From positions 23,370-87,369 of the forward strand of contig CAMJRX010000003.1 of NCBI GenBank assembly GCA_946408355.1: a DNA stretch of 64,000 nt, read 5' to 3'. A program made the position numbers and the translations under genes. The notes below the pieces were generated by a model. It saw only the letters and a program-made list of their open reading frames with translations, did not search any database and had not been told where the DNA came from. Within the stretch, counting starts at the first letter, position 1. Each line of letters opens with the position of its first letter. This stretch comes from an uncultured Selenomonadales bacterium (lineage in GTDB: Bacteria; Bacillota; Negativicutes; Selenomonadales; Selenomonadaceae). This document shows positions 12,367 through 21,970 of this stretch, in pieces.

Positions 12367-13068
12367 TTACTCAACTTCGGTACCCTCAACGGCTCCTTCC
12401 CAATCGATAATGCCGCCCATTTCGTAGACTTGCCTATAACCTTTCTCGACGAGAAGTTTTGCCGTTTGCCGTGCACGATTGCCATCACCGCAGTAACAGA
12501 TAATAGGCGCGTTTTTGTTGGGAATTTTAGAAAAATCTTCCGCCATAACAGCTTCCTTTGGTACAAAAACGGCTCCGACAATGTGTCTAGCTTCGTAATC
12601 TTTTGGGAAACGACAATCTATCAAAACCGCTTCTGAATTAGTTTCTAAAATTTCTTGCGCCTCGTCGTGAGTTATGTGTTTATAAATTTCTGCTCCGACG
12701 ACGGGACCTTTCCAATCAGCAATGCCTCCGAATTCGTAAACATTTTTATAACCTTTATCAGCAAGAAGTTGCGCTGAATCTTGAGCACGACGACCCGTCC
12801 AACAGTAAACTAAAATCGTTTGGTTCTTGTCGGGTATGGACGCAAAATTTCCGTTGCGCAACTCTTCAAGCGGCAGGGAAATCGCGTTGGGAATGTGTTT
12901 CTTTTCGTACTCTTCAGGCGTGCGCACGTCGAGGACAATTACGTTGGGATTATCGGCTATAATTTTTGTTGCCTCGTCATGTGTAATAGATTTGTAAATA
13001 ATTTTTTCACCGCAACCTGTACACAACGCAACGATTAAAACAATCAGCAATGCTAAAAACTTTTTCAT
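12367..13068 (-). CDS. lipoprotein with two tandem rhodanese domains
   Basis: Lipobox LCTGCG; VLDVRTPEEYEKKHIPNA…VYCWTGRRA and LIDCRFPKDYEARHIVGA…CYCGDGNRA. Confidence 0.9.
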   Translation of the reverse strand: MKKFLALLIVLIVALCTGCGEKIIYKSITHDEATKIIADNPNVIVLDVRTPEEYEKKHIPNAISLPLEELRNGNFASIPDKNQTILVYCWTGRRAQDSAQLLADKGYKNVYEFGGIADWKGPVVGAEIYKHITHDEAQEILETNSEAVLIDCRFPKDYEARHIVGAVFVPKEAVMAEDFSKIPNKNAPIICYCGDGNRARQTAKLLVEKGYRQVYEMGGIIDWEGAVEGTEVE

Positions 13069-15965
13069 TTCAACACCTCCGTTAAAGTTTCAATCATTTT
13101 TTCTATATCGAGCGGCTTAGCAATGTGGCTATTCATGCCCGCATCTTTTGCCGTTTGAATGTCCTCAGTGAATGCGTTCGCCGTCATTGCAATAATTGGT
13201 ATCTGCGCAAGTTTTGGATTAGGAAGTTCGCGGATTTTTTTAGTCGCCTCGTAGCCGTTCATAACCGGCATTTGAACATCCATTAAAATTGCGTCGTATT
13301 CGCCGGGCTTGCTTGCCGCAACTTTATCGACAGCAATCTTGCCATTTTCCGCCGTGTCCAAGCCGAATCCAAATTCCGTAAGAATAAGCGACGCAATTTC
13401 GCGGTTAACTTCGTTATCCTCAACCAACAGTAATTTAATCTTGCTGAAGTCAAGCTCGCCTTTCTCGTCGGCAATTTGTTCGACTTCTTCCTCGTCGGGG
13501 TCGTCGATAATCGGGAAGTCAACGCGAACAATAAATTCCGTGCCCTTGCCGAGTTCGGTTTCAACGTCAATCGTGCCGCCCATTAGCTCAACGATACTTT
13601 TAGTAATGCTCATGCCTAAGCCCGTGCCTTGAATGTTGCTAACTGTGCGGTCGCGTTCATAGGCGGCGAAAACTTTTTTGGCGAATTCGGGCGTCATGCC
13701 CATACCCGTATCTTTAACGCGCAATTCATAAGAGCCTTTCTCATCGTTGCCGCCGACTTGACGGAGTGTAACTGTAACGGAGCCGCCTTCAGGCGTAAAT
13801 TTGAACGCATTACTGATAAGATTCAACAAGACACGATTAAGGCGCGGCGTGTCGCACATTACAGTTTTATTCATGACGTGTTCGATATTAACTGCGAACG
13901 TCAAGCCCTTGTTAGCCATTTGCGTCGCGAATAAATCTTTAACTTCGTTCAAAGCTTTAACGATATTCGATTTTTGCGGGGCAAGTTCCATTTTGCCGCT
14001 TTCAATCCGGCTCATGTCAAGAATATCATTAATCAGCGATAAAAGATGATTATTCGACGCCTCGATTTTGTCTAAGTAATCTTTCATGCGCGGCGGAAGT
14101 CCTGGTTCTTTTTTAATTAAGTTCGTGTAGCCGATAATGGCGTTCATGGGCGTGCGTATATCGTGGCTCATATTCGACAGGAAAGTTGACTTCGCCTTAT
14201 TACTGCGCTCCGCTTGAACTTTTTCGCGCTCCATATTTTTTTCGCGTGTCATCATCATATTGTAAATATTGAACATGATAAACAGCGCGATTGTAATTAA
14301 GCCCATTTGCATTAAGTTATGGCGCGTCAAAGAGTCGCTGACAAATTCCATTTGATTTTGCAGATAAAATTCCGAATCAGCTTTCTCGCGATTGCTGGGC
14401 GGTATACCGTGTTCGTTAAGTTCTTCGGTGTAATATTCTCTCAAGTTGCCTAAAACCGTCTGCGCGGCGTCGCTGGTTGCCTCGCGAACCCAAAGCATTG
14501 ATGTAAAGAAAATCAAAAACAGCAACGCTATCCAAGAAATTGTCGACTTGCCAAAACGCCGATCCGTGTCGCGTTGAAAAATATAGCGGAAGAATACAAA
14601 GCCGAGAATGCTCCACAAAATCAAAATCAAATAACTTTCTGTCGTCATTGCGGCAACAGTCCAAACATTCGGCACCATAAAATACAGGAAGAAAATCATT
14701 GACACGACGACGCCGATTAGCCCTGTGATTTGCGGTAGACTTTTGCCAACTTGCCGCGCAGTGATAATCGTTACGAGCGAGGTGTAAGTATAATCGATTG
14801 TCGCGCCGATTGTGTTAACGTCGATAATCCACGCAATCGCGGTGCGTCCGAGAAACGGTATCGGCAAAGACAGGAGCATTATAAATAAAACTGCGTTCAT
14901 AGGCGTGCGATGTTCGTTGAGCTTACCGAACCACGCAGGCAGTAAATCATCACGAGTAAGCGCGAAAATCAATCGACTAGCCGCAATGTAGTTGCCAACC
15001 AAACCGGTAATGACGCCGCCCATAACAGCCATAATCAAAATTATTAAGCCCGTATCGCCCATGAGTTCGTGGATTGCGTGTATAGTTGGCATACCGGCAT
15101 ATCCTTCGAGATTGTCCAAGTCGGCAAGATATTCAGACCAGTTAGAATAGCCTGCCGGTATATCAGAAATCGCCAATATCGCGAGGAAAGTGTAAGCAAG
15201 AGCCGCCGCCACGACCGCGCAGATTAAAATCGCAAAAGTTTTCTTAACTGAGAACTTAAAACCTTCCGCCGATTGTGAAACCGATTCAAAACCAGCAAAT
15301 GCCCACGGAGCCAAAACAACAATTCCAAAAATCGCCGCGAATGAACTTGTATTATCGGGCTGGAAGGCGGGCGCAATGTCAAAAGGATTTATTCCGCTTG
15401 AAACGACCGCGCCCATAGAAATTAATACGCCGCCGAGCAAAATTATCGCCGCAATCGTCTGAACCCACGCCGCTAACTTGCCGCCGTGCATACAGAGCGC
15501 ACCACAAATCCACAGCGCACCCAAACTTAGCAAAGCCTCGCCGAACCAAACATCAAAGCCCGCGATTGTATAATGGAAACCAAATTGAAAAGTATCGCCC
15601 AAAAATTTTCTAAAAATAATGGGGAGCGCAGTTGCATTCGCCCAAGTAATAGCTATGTAAACTAGAATTAAAAACCACGAGCTTAAAAAGCCGTGATCAT
15701 AACCCAGAACTTTTTTAGCGTAAGAATAAGTACCGCCGGCGTCGGGATATTTATTCATCATGAAATGGTAATTGTAGCCGATAATCAGCATGATGACGCC
15801 GCCAATAATCATACCTAGCGCAGTTCCGAGAGGACCGGCAATCGGCAAAAAAGTCGTGCCAGGCATTACGAATGCGCCCCAACCAACCGCGCAACCAAAG
15901 GACAATGCCCAAACGTTCAGCGGCGATAAATAAGGTTTAAGTTTTGTATTTTCTGCAGTATCCAT
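13065..15965 (-). CDS. APC-superfamily amino-acid permease fused to hybrid histidine kinase (HisKA-HATPase-REC)
   Basis: GCAVGWGAFVMPGTTFLPIAGPLG…(multi-TM)…FLSNMSHDIRTPMNAIIGY…GTGLGMSITKSIVELMGG…LLLVEDNEVNREIA…LMDVQMPVMNGYEATKKIR. Confidence 0.92.
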   Translation of the reverse strand: MDTAENTKLKPYLSPLNVWALSFGCAVGWGAFVMPGTTFLPIAGPLGTALGMIIGGVIMLIIGYNYHFMMNKYPDAGGTYSYAKKVLGYDHGFLSSWFLILVYIAITWANATALPIIFRKFLGDTFQFGFHYTIAGFDVWFGEALLSLGALWICGALCMHGGKLAAWVQTIAAIILLGGVLISMGAVVSSGINPFDIAPAFQPDNTSSFAAIFGIVVLAPWAFAGFESVSQSAEGFKFSVKKTFAILICAVVAAALAYTFLAILAISDIPAGYSNWSEYLADLDNLEGYAGMPTIHAIHELMGDTGLIILIMAVMGGVITGLVGNYIAASRLIFALTRDDLLPAWFGKLNEHRTPMNAVLFIMLLSLPIPFLGRTAIAWIIDVNTIGATIDYTYTSLVTIITARQVGKSLPQITGLIGVVVSMIFFLYFMVPNVWTVAAMTTESYLILILWSILGFVFFRYIFQRDTDRRFGKSTISWIALLFLIFFTSMLWVREATSDAAQTVLGNLREYYTEELNEHGIPPSNREKADSEFYLQNQMEFVSDSLTRHNLMQMGLITIALFIMFNIYNMMMTREKNMEREKVQAERSNKAKSTFLSNMSHDIRTPMNAIIGYTNLIKKEPGLPPRMKDYLDKIEASNNHLLSLINDILDMSRIESGKMELAPQKSNIVKALNEVKDLFATQMANKGLTFAVNIEHVMNKTVMCDTPRLNRVLLNLISNAFKFTPEGGSVTVTLRQVGGNDEKGSYELRVKDTGMGMTPEFAKKVFAAYERDRTVSNIQGTGLGMSITKSIVELMGGTIDVETELGKGTEFIVRVDFPIIDDPDEEEVEQIADEKGELDFSKIKLLLVEDNEVNREIASLILTEFGFGLDTAENGKIAVDKVAASKPGEYDAILMDVQMPVMNGYEATKKIRELPNPKLAQIPIIAMTANAFTEDIQTAKDAGMNSHIAKPLDIEKMIETLTEVLK

Positions 15966-16121
15966 ATAAAGGGCACCGCTCTCCTTTAAATAATGTTGTT
16001 GCAATTATACACTAAAGAAAGTTAAAGTAAAGCCAGCTAAAATTGCAGTTAACGGAAAAATTTTCGGCTTGAATATTTTGGCGCAAATGTGTTATTATTC
16101 GCAACAAGGAGGTCGATTTAA

Positions 16122-16540: not shown

Positions 16541-16614
16541 TATTCGTCCAAAGCCTATAGTCCTTTATCGCTAAATCTGATATAATAATTGAAAATTTTT
16601 TCGAGGTGAATTTA

Positions 16615-18330
16615 ATGAGAGCAACTCAACTTTACGCACCAACATTACGCGAATCGCCCGCCGAAGCGGAACTTATCAGCCATAAACTTATGTATCGCGC
16701 AGGATTGATTCGCAAGGCGGCAGGCGGATTGTATTCTTATCTGCCGTTAGGCTGGCGCACGATGAAAAAAATTATGCAAATCATTCGCGAGGAAATGGAC
16801 GCAAAGGGGGGACAAGAAATCATGATGCCAATCGTCCAGCCGGCGGAAATGTGGAAGGAATCAGGGCGTTGGGCGGTTTACGGCGATGAAATGATGCGTC
16901 TAAAGGACAGACATGGCAGAGAATTCGCGCTTGGTCCCACGCACGAGGAAATGATAACAACTTTGATTCGTGACGAGGTTCGCTCTTATAAGCAACTGCC
17001 CGTCATGCTTTATCAAATTCAAAATAAATATCGTGATGAAATTCGACCGCGCTTTGGGCTAATGCGGAGCCGCGAATTTGTCATGAAGGATTTATATTCG
17101 TTCGACAGAGACGTTGACGGCATGAATATTTCCTACGACAAAATGTACGACGCTTACAGCCGGATTTTTACTCGTTGTGGTTTGAAATTTCGTGCAGTTG
17201 AGGCGGATAACGGTGCAATCGGTGGAGGACATTCTCACGAGTTTACAGTTTTAGCTCCAAGCGGCGAATCAAGCATTTCCTACTGCGAAAATTGTGATTA
17301 CGCTGCCAGCGACGAGAAAACCGAATTAAAAATTATTCAAGCTACTCCAGAGGAACCTAAGCCACTGGAGAAAGTCAAAACTCCCAACTGTCACACTATT
17401 GAACTTGTCAAAAACTTTTTGAACGTACCGATTGAAAAGACGATTAAAGCGGTTGCGTTTATGGACGATGACGAACGATTGATTTTGGCGTTTGTGCGCG
17501 GTGACCACGAAGTCAACGAGATAAAAGTTATAAATGCGGTTGAGGGCGCGAATCATCTTTACATGGCGGGCGACAAATTGATTGAGGCGGCTGGTGGTTG
17601 CGCGGGATTTATGAGCCCGATAGGCTTAAACGACAAGGCGATAATTGTTGTTGACCAAAGTGTAATGCTGATGTCGAATGCCGTTGCCGGTGCTAACGAA
17701 GTTGATACGCATTTTATCAACGTGACGCCGCGCAGAGACTTTGACGCGGAAAAAATTATCGTGGCAGATATTCGCATGGTGCAAGAGGGCGACCCGTGTC
17801 CTCATTGCGGCGCACCCTTAAGCATGACACGCGGAATTGAAGTTGGACAAGTCTTTACGCTCGGAAAAAAATATTCAGAGGCTTTGCACGCGACTTTCCT
17901 CGACGAAAACGGATCTACGAAACCTTTTGAAATGGGTTGCTACGGAATAGGCGTTGGTCGGACGATGGCGGCGGCGATTGAGCAGAATAACGACGCTGAC
18001 GGAATTATTTGGACGCGGGCGATTGCGCCATTTGAAGTTGTCGTCGTACCAGTCAACGCAAAAGACGATAAACAACTTGCCCTTGCTGAAGAAATTTATA
18101 ATGAACTTAAAGCGGCGGGCGTAGATGTTTTGCTTGACGACAGAAAAGAACGCGCTGGCGTCAAGTTTAAAGATTGCGATTTGATAGGTTATCCGTTGCG
18201 TGTGACGATTAGCCCGAAAACTTTAGACAGTGGCAATGTCGAAGTAAAAGTTCGTCGGAGCGGGGAATTTATTAACTTTACTCGCGGCGAATGCGTCGGA
18301 AAAATTTTGGAGCTCTTGGAGACGTTATAA
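16615..18330 (+). CDS. proS: prolyl-tRNA synthetase
   Basis: [74 protein letters not shown]. Confidence 0.97.
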
Positions 18331-18340
18331 ATAGAAATTA

Positions 18341-18396
18341 GGAACCGGGTACTTGCGACTTTAAATTGGTGCACGGTTCCTAAAAGTTTTTTTCGA
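18341..18396 (+). terminator. hairpin between proS and the Zorya-like locus
   Basis: TTAGGAACCG…CGGTTCCTAA followed by AAAGTTTTTTT. Confidence 0.5.
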
Positions 18397-18414
18397 GCGG
18401 AAGGATTCAAAACA

Positions 18415-19752
18415 GTGGAAGATTTAATTTCAAAATGGGGACTGACAGGGATTTGTATAATCTTCATGGTTGCATGGTCTTTTGGGCGGGACTTTCCAGA
18501 ATTTAAACGTTCAGTTAAAGAAAATCCCTTCGGCGACTACCAACAGCCAAACACGGCATCGATTCTTGGTGTATTGGGTACTTTTATAGGAATTGCGGTG
18601 GGTCTTTACAATTTTAATCCTGCACCAGAGGCAATGCACGATAGCGTTATAAAACTTTTGGGCGGAATGACTACAGCCTTTGTCACTTCGATTTTGGGTA
18701 TGGGAATTTCTCTTTACTTTAAAAATTATCAAGCAAACGCGCAGAAAAAATTTTCTAGAAATAATTTTGTCAAGCCTGAATCAACTATCGCCGACTTAAT
18801 TTAATATCTGCAACAAGCCGACACAGAAAAGTCCGAACTGTTAAAAAAGTTGACGATTTCTCTTGTCGGCGACGGCGATTCAACTGTTATAGGGCAAATG
18901 AAGATAATTAAATCCGATATTCGCGACGAGTTTAGGCAAGTAGAAAAAATTTTGCAAGATAATAACGAAAATGTCATCCGCGAGCTTAGAGATTTTGGAA
19001 AAACTCTTGCTGAAAGTAATTCAAAGGCTTTTATCGAGGCATTAAACGAAACGATGAAAGATTTCAATCAAAAACTTACGGAATAGTTCGGCGAGAACTT
19101 TAAACAGCTGAATATTGCCGTCGGGCGTCTTTTAGTTTGGCAAGAAAATTATAAGGTGACGATTGAACGCATTACGAAAAATTTGCAAGTGACTATTGAA
19201 GGAATTGACGCTGTAAAAAATTCTGTTGTAAAAATTGAAGAATCTGCCGCATCGATTACGAAAAGTAGCGAACAAATTTTAAATCTTATCGTTACTGCCA
19301 ACATGTACGAGCAAAAACTCCGCCAAGTTTTAAGCGACATTCAATCTATCAGCGAAAATACCGCAGACTCAGTAGAAAATTTAACAACGAATATGTATAA
19401 CGCTATAGATAATGCAAATTACATGACACAAAAGATTTCTGCGACTACAAACACGGCTTTGAATAAAATTTCAGATACAACCAATCAAACAATAACCTCA
19501 ATGCAAAAAATGTCTCAAGAAATTCGCAACGAATCGTTTAAGGTAACGTCCGAAACCGTCTTAAAAATGGAAAAGATGATGGAGGCGAACGATAAGAACT
19601 TCAGAGAGTCACTCGAAACGCTCGGAAAGGCAATGTTGCAGATTTCAAAAAAATTCGCAGAAGATTACACACCTTTGGCGAACAGATTAAGAGAAATTGT
19701 TCAGATAGCGGAACAAGTCAGACCTTCGGGAAGAGGAGGTCGTTTGTTTTGA
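18415..19752 (+). pseudogene. zorA: ZorA-like MotA/TolQ/ExbB-family protein with long coiled-coil tail; in-frame TAA (18802) and TAG (19084)
   Basis: One continuous 446-codon frame: MEDLISKWGLTGICIIFMVAWSFGRDFPEFKRSVKENPFGDYQQPNTASILGVLGTFIGIAVGLYNF… DLI[TAA]YLQQADTEKSELLKKLTISLVGDGDSTVIGQ… FNQKLTE[TAG]FGENFKQLNIAVGRLLVWQENYK…. Confidence 0.8.
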
Positions 19753-20447
19753 AAAACCGCGCTGATCATTGGATGTCAATTTCGGATATTATGTCCGGGC
19801 TCATGATTGTTTTTATGTTTATCGCCGTCGCATTCATGATGCAGGTATAAAATGAACAGCGGCAGAAAAACGAAATGATTTATAACTACGCCGTCATCAA
19901 ACACAAAATTTATTCGTCATTGCTTGAAGAATTTAAGAACGATTTGCCGAAATGGAATGCGGAACTTGACGAAAAAACTTTGACGGTAAGATTTAAAGAG
20001 CCGGACGTGTTATTCGGCGTTGGTTCAGATTTTTTGACTCAAAAATTTCAAGAAATATTGAATGATTTTCTTCCGCGATATATTGCAGTAATTTCTCAAG
20101 ACGAATACAAAGATTATATCGAAGAAATACAAATCGAAGGGCATACAGATCCGTTTTGGGCAGGAGCTGTGACACGTCAACAAGAATATCTTAACAATAT
20201 GGAACTTTCGCAATCGAGAACGCGAGCCGTTTTGGTTTACGCGATAAATATGCCCGCCTTACAAGAAAATCTGGAATGGATTATCCGCCGAATTACTGCC
20301 AACGGCTTATCCTCAAGTCAACCCGTGATTTTCGACGGAAAAATTGATGCAAAACTTTCAAGACGAGTGGATTTCAGAATCCGCACGAAAGCCGATGAAA
20401 AAATGAATGAACTTGCAGAAGGAATTACTCACAATGGAGAAAATTGA
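19749..20447 (+). pseudogene. zorB: ZorB-like MotB/OmpA-family protein; in-frame TAA at 19848
   Basis: MKNRADHWMSISDIMSGLMIVFMFIAVAFMMQV[TAA]NEQRQKNEMIYNY…; OmpA-like EIQIEGHTDPFWAG…LSQSRTRAVLVYA; TTG start overlaps the zorA stop. Confidence 0.8.
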
Positions 20448-21168
20448 CTTTTTAAACTGCGACGAATTCAAACTGATTAAAAAGCTCATGGGAATTTCTG
20501 ATAAAGACAAAACGAATTTCACCATAGATATACGTGCAGATGATCCGAATCTTGAAATATCGTCAGAGGGAATTACTTACAAAGGGAACAGAGTAATTTT
20601 GTATATTCGCGACCAAGTCCAATACGGCGATAAAATTAACGAGTATAAATTTCATGTAATTGATTGTGCAACGTTAAAAAATATGCGAAAACATAATCGT
20701 TACGGTAAATATGTTGTTTCGACTTCGACAACCGGAATATTCAAGGTGAATCGCATTATAAATAATCGTTCAGCAGAAAGTGAAGAAAAATTGCACGTTT
20801 GCAAGCATTGTTTGCGAAAATTGAATCAGCAAGGATATAATTTTATCTACGAGAATTTTTCTATCGAAGAATTTTTCAAGGTTATGAATGAAGATAACAG
20901 CATAAATTTTTTGTATTTGCCTGATGAAAATGATTTAACAGCTCCGACAAATATTTATCCAGATAATTGGAAAGAAATATCCCGCCGTTTGAAGGAAAAA
21001 TACAATTACACTTGCCAAGAATGTCACAGAAATTTTTCTAATTGTAAATCGCAGTTACAAGTTCACCATAAAAACGAACTTAAATGGGACTGTAGCGAAT
21101 CGAATTTGGAAGTTGTATGTATTGATTGCCATCAAGCAAAGCACAATCACAAAATAACGAGGAAGTGA
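20434..21168 (+). CDS. HNH-endonuclease domain protein, third gene of the Zorya-like locus
   Basis: C-terminal CQECHRNFSNCKSQLQVHHKNELKWDCSESNLEVVCIDCHQAKHNH; RBS AAGGAATT before ATG at 20434. Confidence 0.8.
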   Translation: MEKIDFLNCDEFKLIKKLMGISDKDKTNFTIDIRADDPNLEISSEGITYKGNRVILYIRDQVQYGDKINEYKFHVIDCATLKNMRKHNRYGKYVVSTSTTGIFKVNRIINNRSAESEEKLHVCKHCLRKLNQQGYNFIYENFSIEEFFKVMNEDNSINFLYLPDENDLTAPTNIYPDNWKEISRRLKEKYNYTCQECHRNFSNCKSQLQVHHKNELKWDCSESNLEVVCIDCHQAKHNHKITRK

Positions 21169-21172
21169 AACT

Positions 21173-21970
21173 ATGAAAATTGCATTGACGATTGCGGGTT
21201 CTGATTCTTCGGGCGGCGCGGGCATTCAAGCGGATTTGAAAACTTTTTTAGCTAATGGTGTTTACGGCATGAGCGCGATAACGGCTTTGACGGCGCAAAA
21301 TACTTGTGGCGTGCGTTCTGTGCTGAATTCTACACCGGAATTTTTATGCGACCAACTTGACGCGATTTTTGAGGACATTTTTCCCGACGCAGTTAAAATC
21401 GGAATGGTGTCTTCAGCAAAGTTGATTGAAATTATCGCGGCTAAGTTAAAATTCCGCAAAGCTAAAAATATCGTCGTTGACCCCGTAATGATTGCGACTT
21501 CTGGCGCGAAATTGATTGACGAAGACGCTGTTAAAACTCTCAAGAAAAAACTTTTTCCGCTCGCAAAAATTTTGACGCCGAACTTGCCCGAACTCGAAAA
21601 AATTTCCGACGAAAAAATTTCTTCGCCGCGTGATATGGAATTTGCCGCGCAGAAAATTTTTGAGCAATACGGCTGTGCAGTTTTGGCTAAAGGCGGACAT
21701 GGTAAAAACGACGCTAACGATTATCTCTTCGACGGCGCGGGCAAATGGTTTTACGGGCGGCGAATTGATACGCAAAACACACACGGCACGGGTTGTACGT
21801 TAAGTTCCGCGATTGCCGCCAATTTAGCCAAAGATTACGACTTGAAAAATTCTGTTGGGCGTGCGAAAAGTTATTTGACGGGCGCATTGTCGACGGGCTT
21901 AAATTTGGGCGCGGGCAGTGGACCTTTGAATCACGGCTTTAACCTGCGCGGCTCGGATTTTAATGATTAA
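21173..21970 (+). CDS. thiD: bifunctional hydroxymethylpyrimidine kinase/phosphomethylpyrimidine kinase
   Basis: MKIALTIAGSDSSGGAGIQADLKTFLANGVYGMSAITALTAQNT; THGTGCTLSSAIAANLA. Confidence 0.96.
   Translation: MKIALTIAGSDSSGGAGIQADLKTFLANGVYGMSAITALTAQNTCGVRSVLNSTPEFLCDQLDAIFEDIFPDAVKIGMVSSAKLIEIIAAKLKFRKAKNIVVDPVMIATSGAKLIDEDAVKTLKKKLFPLAKILTPNLPELEKISDEKISSPRDMEFAAQKIFEQYGCAVLAKGGHGKNDANDYLFDGAGKWFYGRRIDTQNTHGTGCTLSSAIAANLAKDYDLKNSVGRAKSYLTGALSTGLNLGAGSGPLNHGFNLRGSDFND

Follow-up and report, generated by a model that had tools for sequence, protein, structure and literature searches.

Deletion of any component of a Zorya type II system abolishes protection, and defence also requires the cytoplasmic extension of ZorA, the peptidoglycan-binding domain of ZorB and the motor aspartate of ZorB (PMC11890865). 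ZorE, the effector, is a nickase that needs ZorAB for activity in the cell under native expression (PMC11890865). The locus described here lies in a window of 64,000 nucleotides, a term used below for the whole stretch of DNA that was analysed. It shares its gene order and its matches to the ZorA2, ZorB2 and ZorE2 profiles with the Zorya II systems of Sulfuricurvum kujiense (ZorAB, PDB 8VVI) and Escherichia coli ATCC 8739. As in known Zorya II systems, the window ZorB carries a motor-aspartate motif and an OmpA-like domain, and the window ZorE carries an HNH-type motif and paired cysteines. Unlike the S. kujiense and E. coli genes, however, zorA and zorB of the window contain premature stops. 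We consider it very probable that the locus is a Zorya type II operon (zorA-zorB-zorE) that lies between proS and thiD on the chromosome of a rumen-type member of the Selenomonadaceae, and that three nonsense substitutions have inactivated it.

For the purpose of profile searches only, the stops were read through. The read-through frame of zorA matches the PADLOC profile ZorA2 (5.1e-68, residues 44-435) and its product matches the ZorA of PDB 8VVI (9e-37), while the read-through frame of zorB matches ZorB2 (3e-88) and its product matches both OmpA (PF00691) and the ZorB of PDB 8VVI (3.6e-48). In the case of zorE, matches were found to the PADLOC profile ZorE2 (6.6e-55, over most of the protein length) and to the NCBIfam ZorE model (7e-40). 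The NCBIfam type II models match all three proteins, at scores below the strict cut-offs of those models. The hallmarks of Zorya II can thus be recognized: a MotA/ExbB-like membrane part followed by a long cytoplasmic tail in zorA, although split by two stops; a MotB-like transmembrane helix with the motor aspartate and an OmpA peptidoglycan-binding domain in zorB, although split by one stop; and an HNH endonuclease/nickase encoded by an open frame, zorE, in the same operon. The initial annotation had proposed Zorya type II and had suggested a PADLOC-type search; that search returned ZorA2, ZorB2 and ZorE2, and these matches support the proposal. The suggestion that a short ZorE might define a variant subtype was not supported. 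A length of 244 aa is normal for the lineage, as it is also found in intact sister species and, more broadly, in the sister-species loci L007, L008, L011 and L019, and the ZorE2 profiles match over most of it. What the window ZorE lacks, relative to the longer NCBIfam ZorE model, is just the C-terminal part, which its sister-species homologues lack as well. Judged by these comparisons, the locus is a Zorya type II, and a new subtype is not indicated on present evidence.

Layout of the operon and position of the stops

All features considered here lie on the + strand. The cassette is flanked on the left by proS (16606..18330), whose stop is TAA, and on the right by thiD (21173..21970). The zorA2 pseudogene (18415..19752, 445 codons), which encodes a MotA-like motor subunit plus a cytoplasmic tail, runs from a GTG at 18415 to a TGA at 19750-19752, and direct reading of the window letters reveals two in-frame stops: premature stop 1, a TAA at 18802-18804 (codon 130), and premature stop 2, a TAG at 19084-19086 (codon 224). 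The zorB2 pseudogene (19749..20447, 232 codons), which encodes a MotB/OmpA-like stator, starts with a TTG at 19749 that overlaps the zorA stop and ends with a TGA at 20445-20447. Its single in-frame stop, premature stop 3, is a TAA at 19848-19850 (codon 34), right behind the transmembrane helix. The zorE2 gene (20434..21168, from ATG 20434 to TGA 21166-21168) encodes the HNH nickase effector, and its 244 codons are uninterrupted. Re-reading thus leaves unchanged the frames and coordinates of the initial annotation, including the intact zorE and the TGA that terminates each of the three genes.

Homology to ZorA2 and ZorB2 spans all three stops without any frameshift, as had also been noticed from the sequence on either side of each stop. 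Hence, zorA and zorB are not open reading frames juxtaposed by chance. When the window was scanned for open stretches that share a frame and are separated by a stop, the zor locus was the sole gene-sized chain of repeated interruptions; those other long split pairs that were examined with Pfam either represented distinct genes or gave no informative match. Elsewhere in the window (13065-16004), a 979-aa protein seems, judging by its translation, to combine an amino-acid-permease-like membrane part with a histidine kinase/response-regulator part.

A hairpin followed by a T run (18340..18398) is found between proS and zorA, around 20 nt upstream of the zorA start. The element is present in those proS-thiD copies whose leader is covered and absent at empty sites. 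The hairpin is stable, and both sides have changed in four pairs. It is tentatively interpreted as a terminator or attenuator that zor transcription must pass.

Stop 1 cuts off nearly all of the ZorA tail, which in the S. kujiense ZorA model begins at residue 110, and stop 3 cuts off the whole periplasmic domain of ZorB. As the parts lost are required in Zorya II, loss of function is expected. With translation ending after 129 codons, ZorA would retain its membrane part but not its cytoplasmic tail, while translation of zorB would end after 33 codons, so that the transmembrane helix alone would remain. A ZorA5ZorB2 motor could not then form, and ZorE, if made at all, would not be recruited to infected membranes. 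The expected outcome is the loss of ZorA and ZorB protein and, with it, of protection against phages.

Residues replaced by the stops

A search of public genomes yielded 16 related loci, of which 14 belong to Selenomonadaceae/Selenomonadales MAGs; every locus with a named source came from a ruminant. When these loci were aligned, the positions of stops 2 and 3 were found to be CAA or CAG (Gln) in every relative that covers them. The position of stop 1 is CAA (Gln) in the closest relatives and Asn, Lys, Arg or Leu in more distant ones. At none of the three positions does an aligned relative have a stop codon. Each stop is a single C-to-T transition away from the Gln codon of the closest relatives, and C-to-T and G-to-A are the fastest substitution classes in these genes. 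On the evidence of the alignment, all three stops are nonsense changes of Gln codons; the initial annotation had considered that Gln fits at least two of the sites, and the closest intact relatives have it at all three.

Under the measured substitution spectrum, around 32% of nonsense changes are expected at Gln codons, and the chance that three of three fall there is p ~0.03. This coincidence is mildly unusual but not decisive. We also counted the private changes of the window lineage in zorA and zorB, an approximate procedure in which the state on which the other sequences agree is simply taken as ancestral. The 66 changes comprise 32 missense, 31 synonymous and 3 nonsense, whereas random mutation in these genes would yield about 70% missense, 26% synonymous and 4% nonsense. 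As the nonsense fraction (3/66) fits the neutral expectation, no unusual process is needed, and a special mutational process was rejected. The missense and synonymous counts, on the other hand, give no sign of general relaxation, which implies that the loss must be recent. With the caveat of approximate counting, the window branch would thus have been mostly under purifying selection until a recent inactivation.

The proS-thiD site in related genomes

In 16 congeners, proS and thiD adjoin directly. The Zorya cassette thus represents accessory DNA inserted between them. On a tree of thiD (a single gene, with some weak nodes), genomes with and without the cassette at this site intermingle, a pattern that fits repeated loss or exchange. 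Seven Zorya copies were seen at the site, and four of them are broken (the window, L007, L019 and L020). Both zorA and zorB are open in L008, L009 and L011, although zorE of L009 is cut by a contig end. Two of these copies, L008 (genome G074) and L011 (G111), are intact operons of sister Selenomonadaceae species; they share the position and the flanks of the window locus, and their ZorB is 92-94% identical to that of the window. Unlike the window, however, they have no premature stops. Open zorA and zorB genes are also found in L012, L014 and others, and the related Selenomonadaceae loci are mostly intact.

The broken copies carry different lesions. In L007, most of the zorA membrane region is missing and zorA has a second deletion. 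In L019, zorA has deletions and an in-frame TAG, and zorB has a frameshift. In L020, large deletions extend into zorE. Because the lesions differ, the four losses look independent. The broken sister copies, together with the Gln codons of the closest relatives, support inactivation by point substitutions, one of the possibilities raised in the initial annotation. A second Zorya copy, which could complement the broken one, was not found in the same genome.

Other Zorya II zorB homologues of the genus, in L113 (G083), L110 (G056:C52) and L112 (G072), also seem to be frameshifted or to carry an in-frame stop, and they suggest that Zorya II is commonly lost in the genus. A separate observation concerns zorA of L113: in the encoded tail, a segment of several dozen residues recurs in nearly identical form; the length of the ZorA tail thus seems to vary with the number of repeats.

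Alternative readings of the interrupted operon

The initial annotation had also contemplated readthrough, recoding or an origin in a TAR-recoded replicon. If TAA and TAG were read as Gln, either in a recoded genome or through a suppressor tRNA or programmed readthrough, the zor genes would be functional, and the presence of Gln at all three positions in the closest relatives (p ~0.03, as above) mildly favours such an explanation. The use of stop codons in the window is, however, normal. We counted 48 non-overlapping ORFs of 150 aa or longer: TAA terminates 28 of them, TAG 5 and TGA 15, so that TAA and TAG together account for 33 of 48; the TGA class includes the 3' fragments of zorA and zorB as well as zorE. 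The housekeeping genes thrS and proS both end in TAA. The genome also harbors an intact prfA gene (RF1, 545 bits) and normal tRNA-Gln genes with UUG and CUG anticodons. A suppressor-tRNA search, likewise suggested at the outset, detected no UUA or CUA anticodon among the 43 tRNAs assigned by ARAGORN, all with ordinary anticodons, in this 84%-complete MAG, from whose assembly a suppressor gene could be absent. A tRNA-like sequence of 93 nt (G000:C37:9302-9394; L095, L162; 42.9 bits to RF00005) could be considered a candidate, but its anticodon region is enlarged by about 28 bases, no anticodon could be given, and matches to it in the genus are partial and confined to a few congeners. Furthermore, the absence of stops at the three positions in aligned relatives speaks against decoding as Gln, and the frameshifts and deletions of the sister copies are beyond rescue by recoding. 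The TAG of L019 does sit at a Gln position, but in a gene that is broken anyway. Stop usage and an intact RF1 lead us to reject genome-wide recoding, and we regard functional zor genes with Gln at the stops as extremely improbable. The zor stops are not evidence of a changed genetic code and, to the extent that the data permit, recoding can be excluded. As the genome is a MAG, one may also ask if the real genes are intact and the stops are artefacts of sequencing, assembly or strain mixing. This explanation seems very unlikely: it would place three separate substitutions within a single locus of 2 kb, although no comparable chain of interruptions occurs elsewhere in the window, and independent MAGs of sister species have broken copies too.

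A further possibility is compatible with nonsense inactivation of zorAB: zorE might be kept as a stand-alone or shared effector. A 2026 preprint reports ZorE use independent of ZorAB, in a combination of Druantia III and Zorya II (PMC13192584), and three of the four broken copies (the window, L007 and L019) retain an open zorE. The exception is L020, which has lost part of zorE. By crude counting, none of about 10 lesions falls in zorE, compared with about 26% expected from its length, a deficit that reaches only p ~0.05. The substitution ratios of zorE do not differ clearly between broken and intact lineages. A DruE-type partner of ZorE would presumably be a helicase with an MZB domain, and none was found in the 84%-complete assembly, so a Druantia-type partner was rejected. 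We therefore find it unlikely that zorE is recruited without ZorAB as in the Druantia III and Zorya II case; it is likewise unlikely that, after ZorAB loss, several lineages have kept zorE under selection as a nickase effector that acts independently of the motor and is linked to another defence or repair pathway.

Inactivation of zorA and zorB by nonsense substitutions makes this one more Zorya II locus, in a decayed state, and its small value is comparative. Automatic annotation that reads ZorE only could mistake the locus for an orphan HNH gene or for a working system. The proS-thiD site, on the other hand, shows three states of Zorya II (intact, broken and absent) within one genus, and is thus suited to the study of the rate at which a costly defence is lost.
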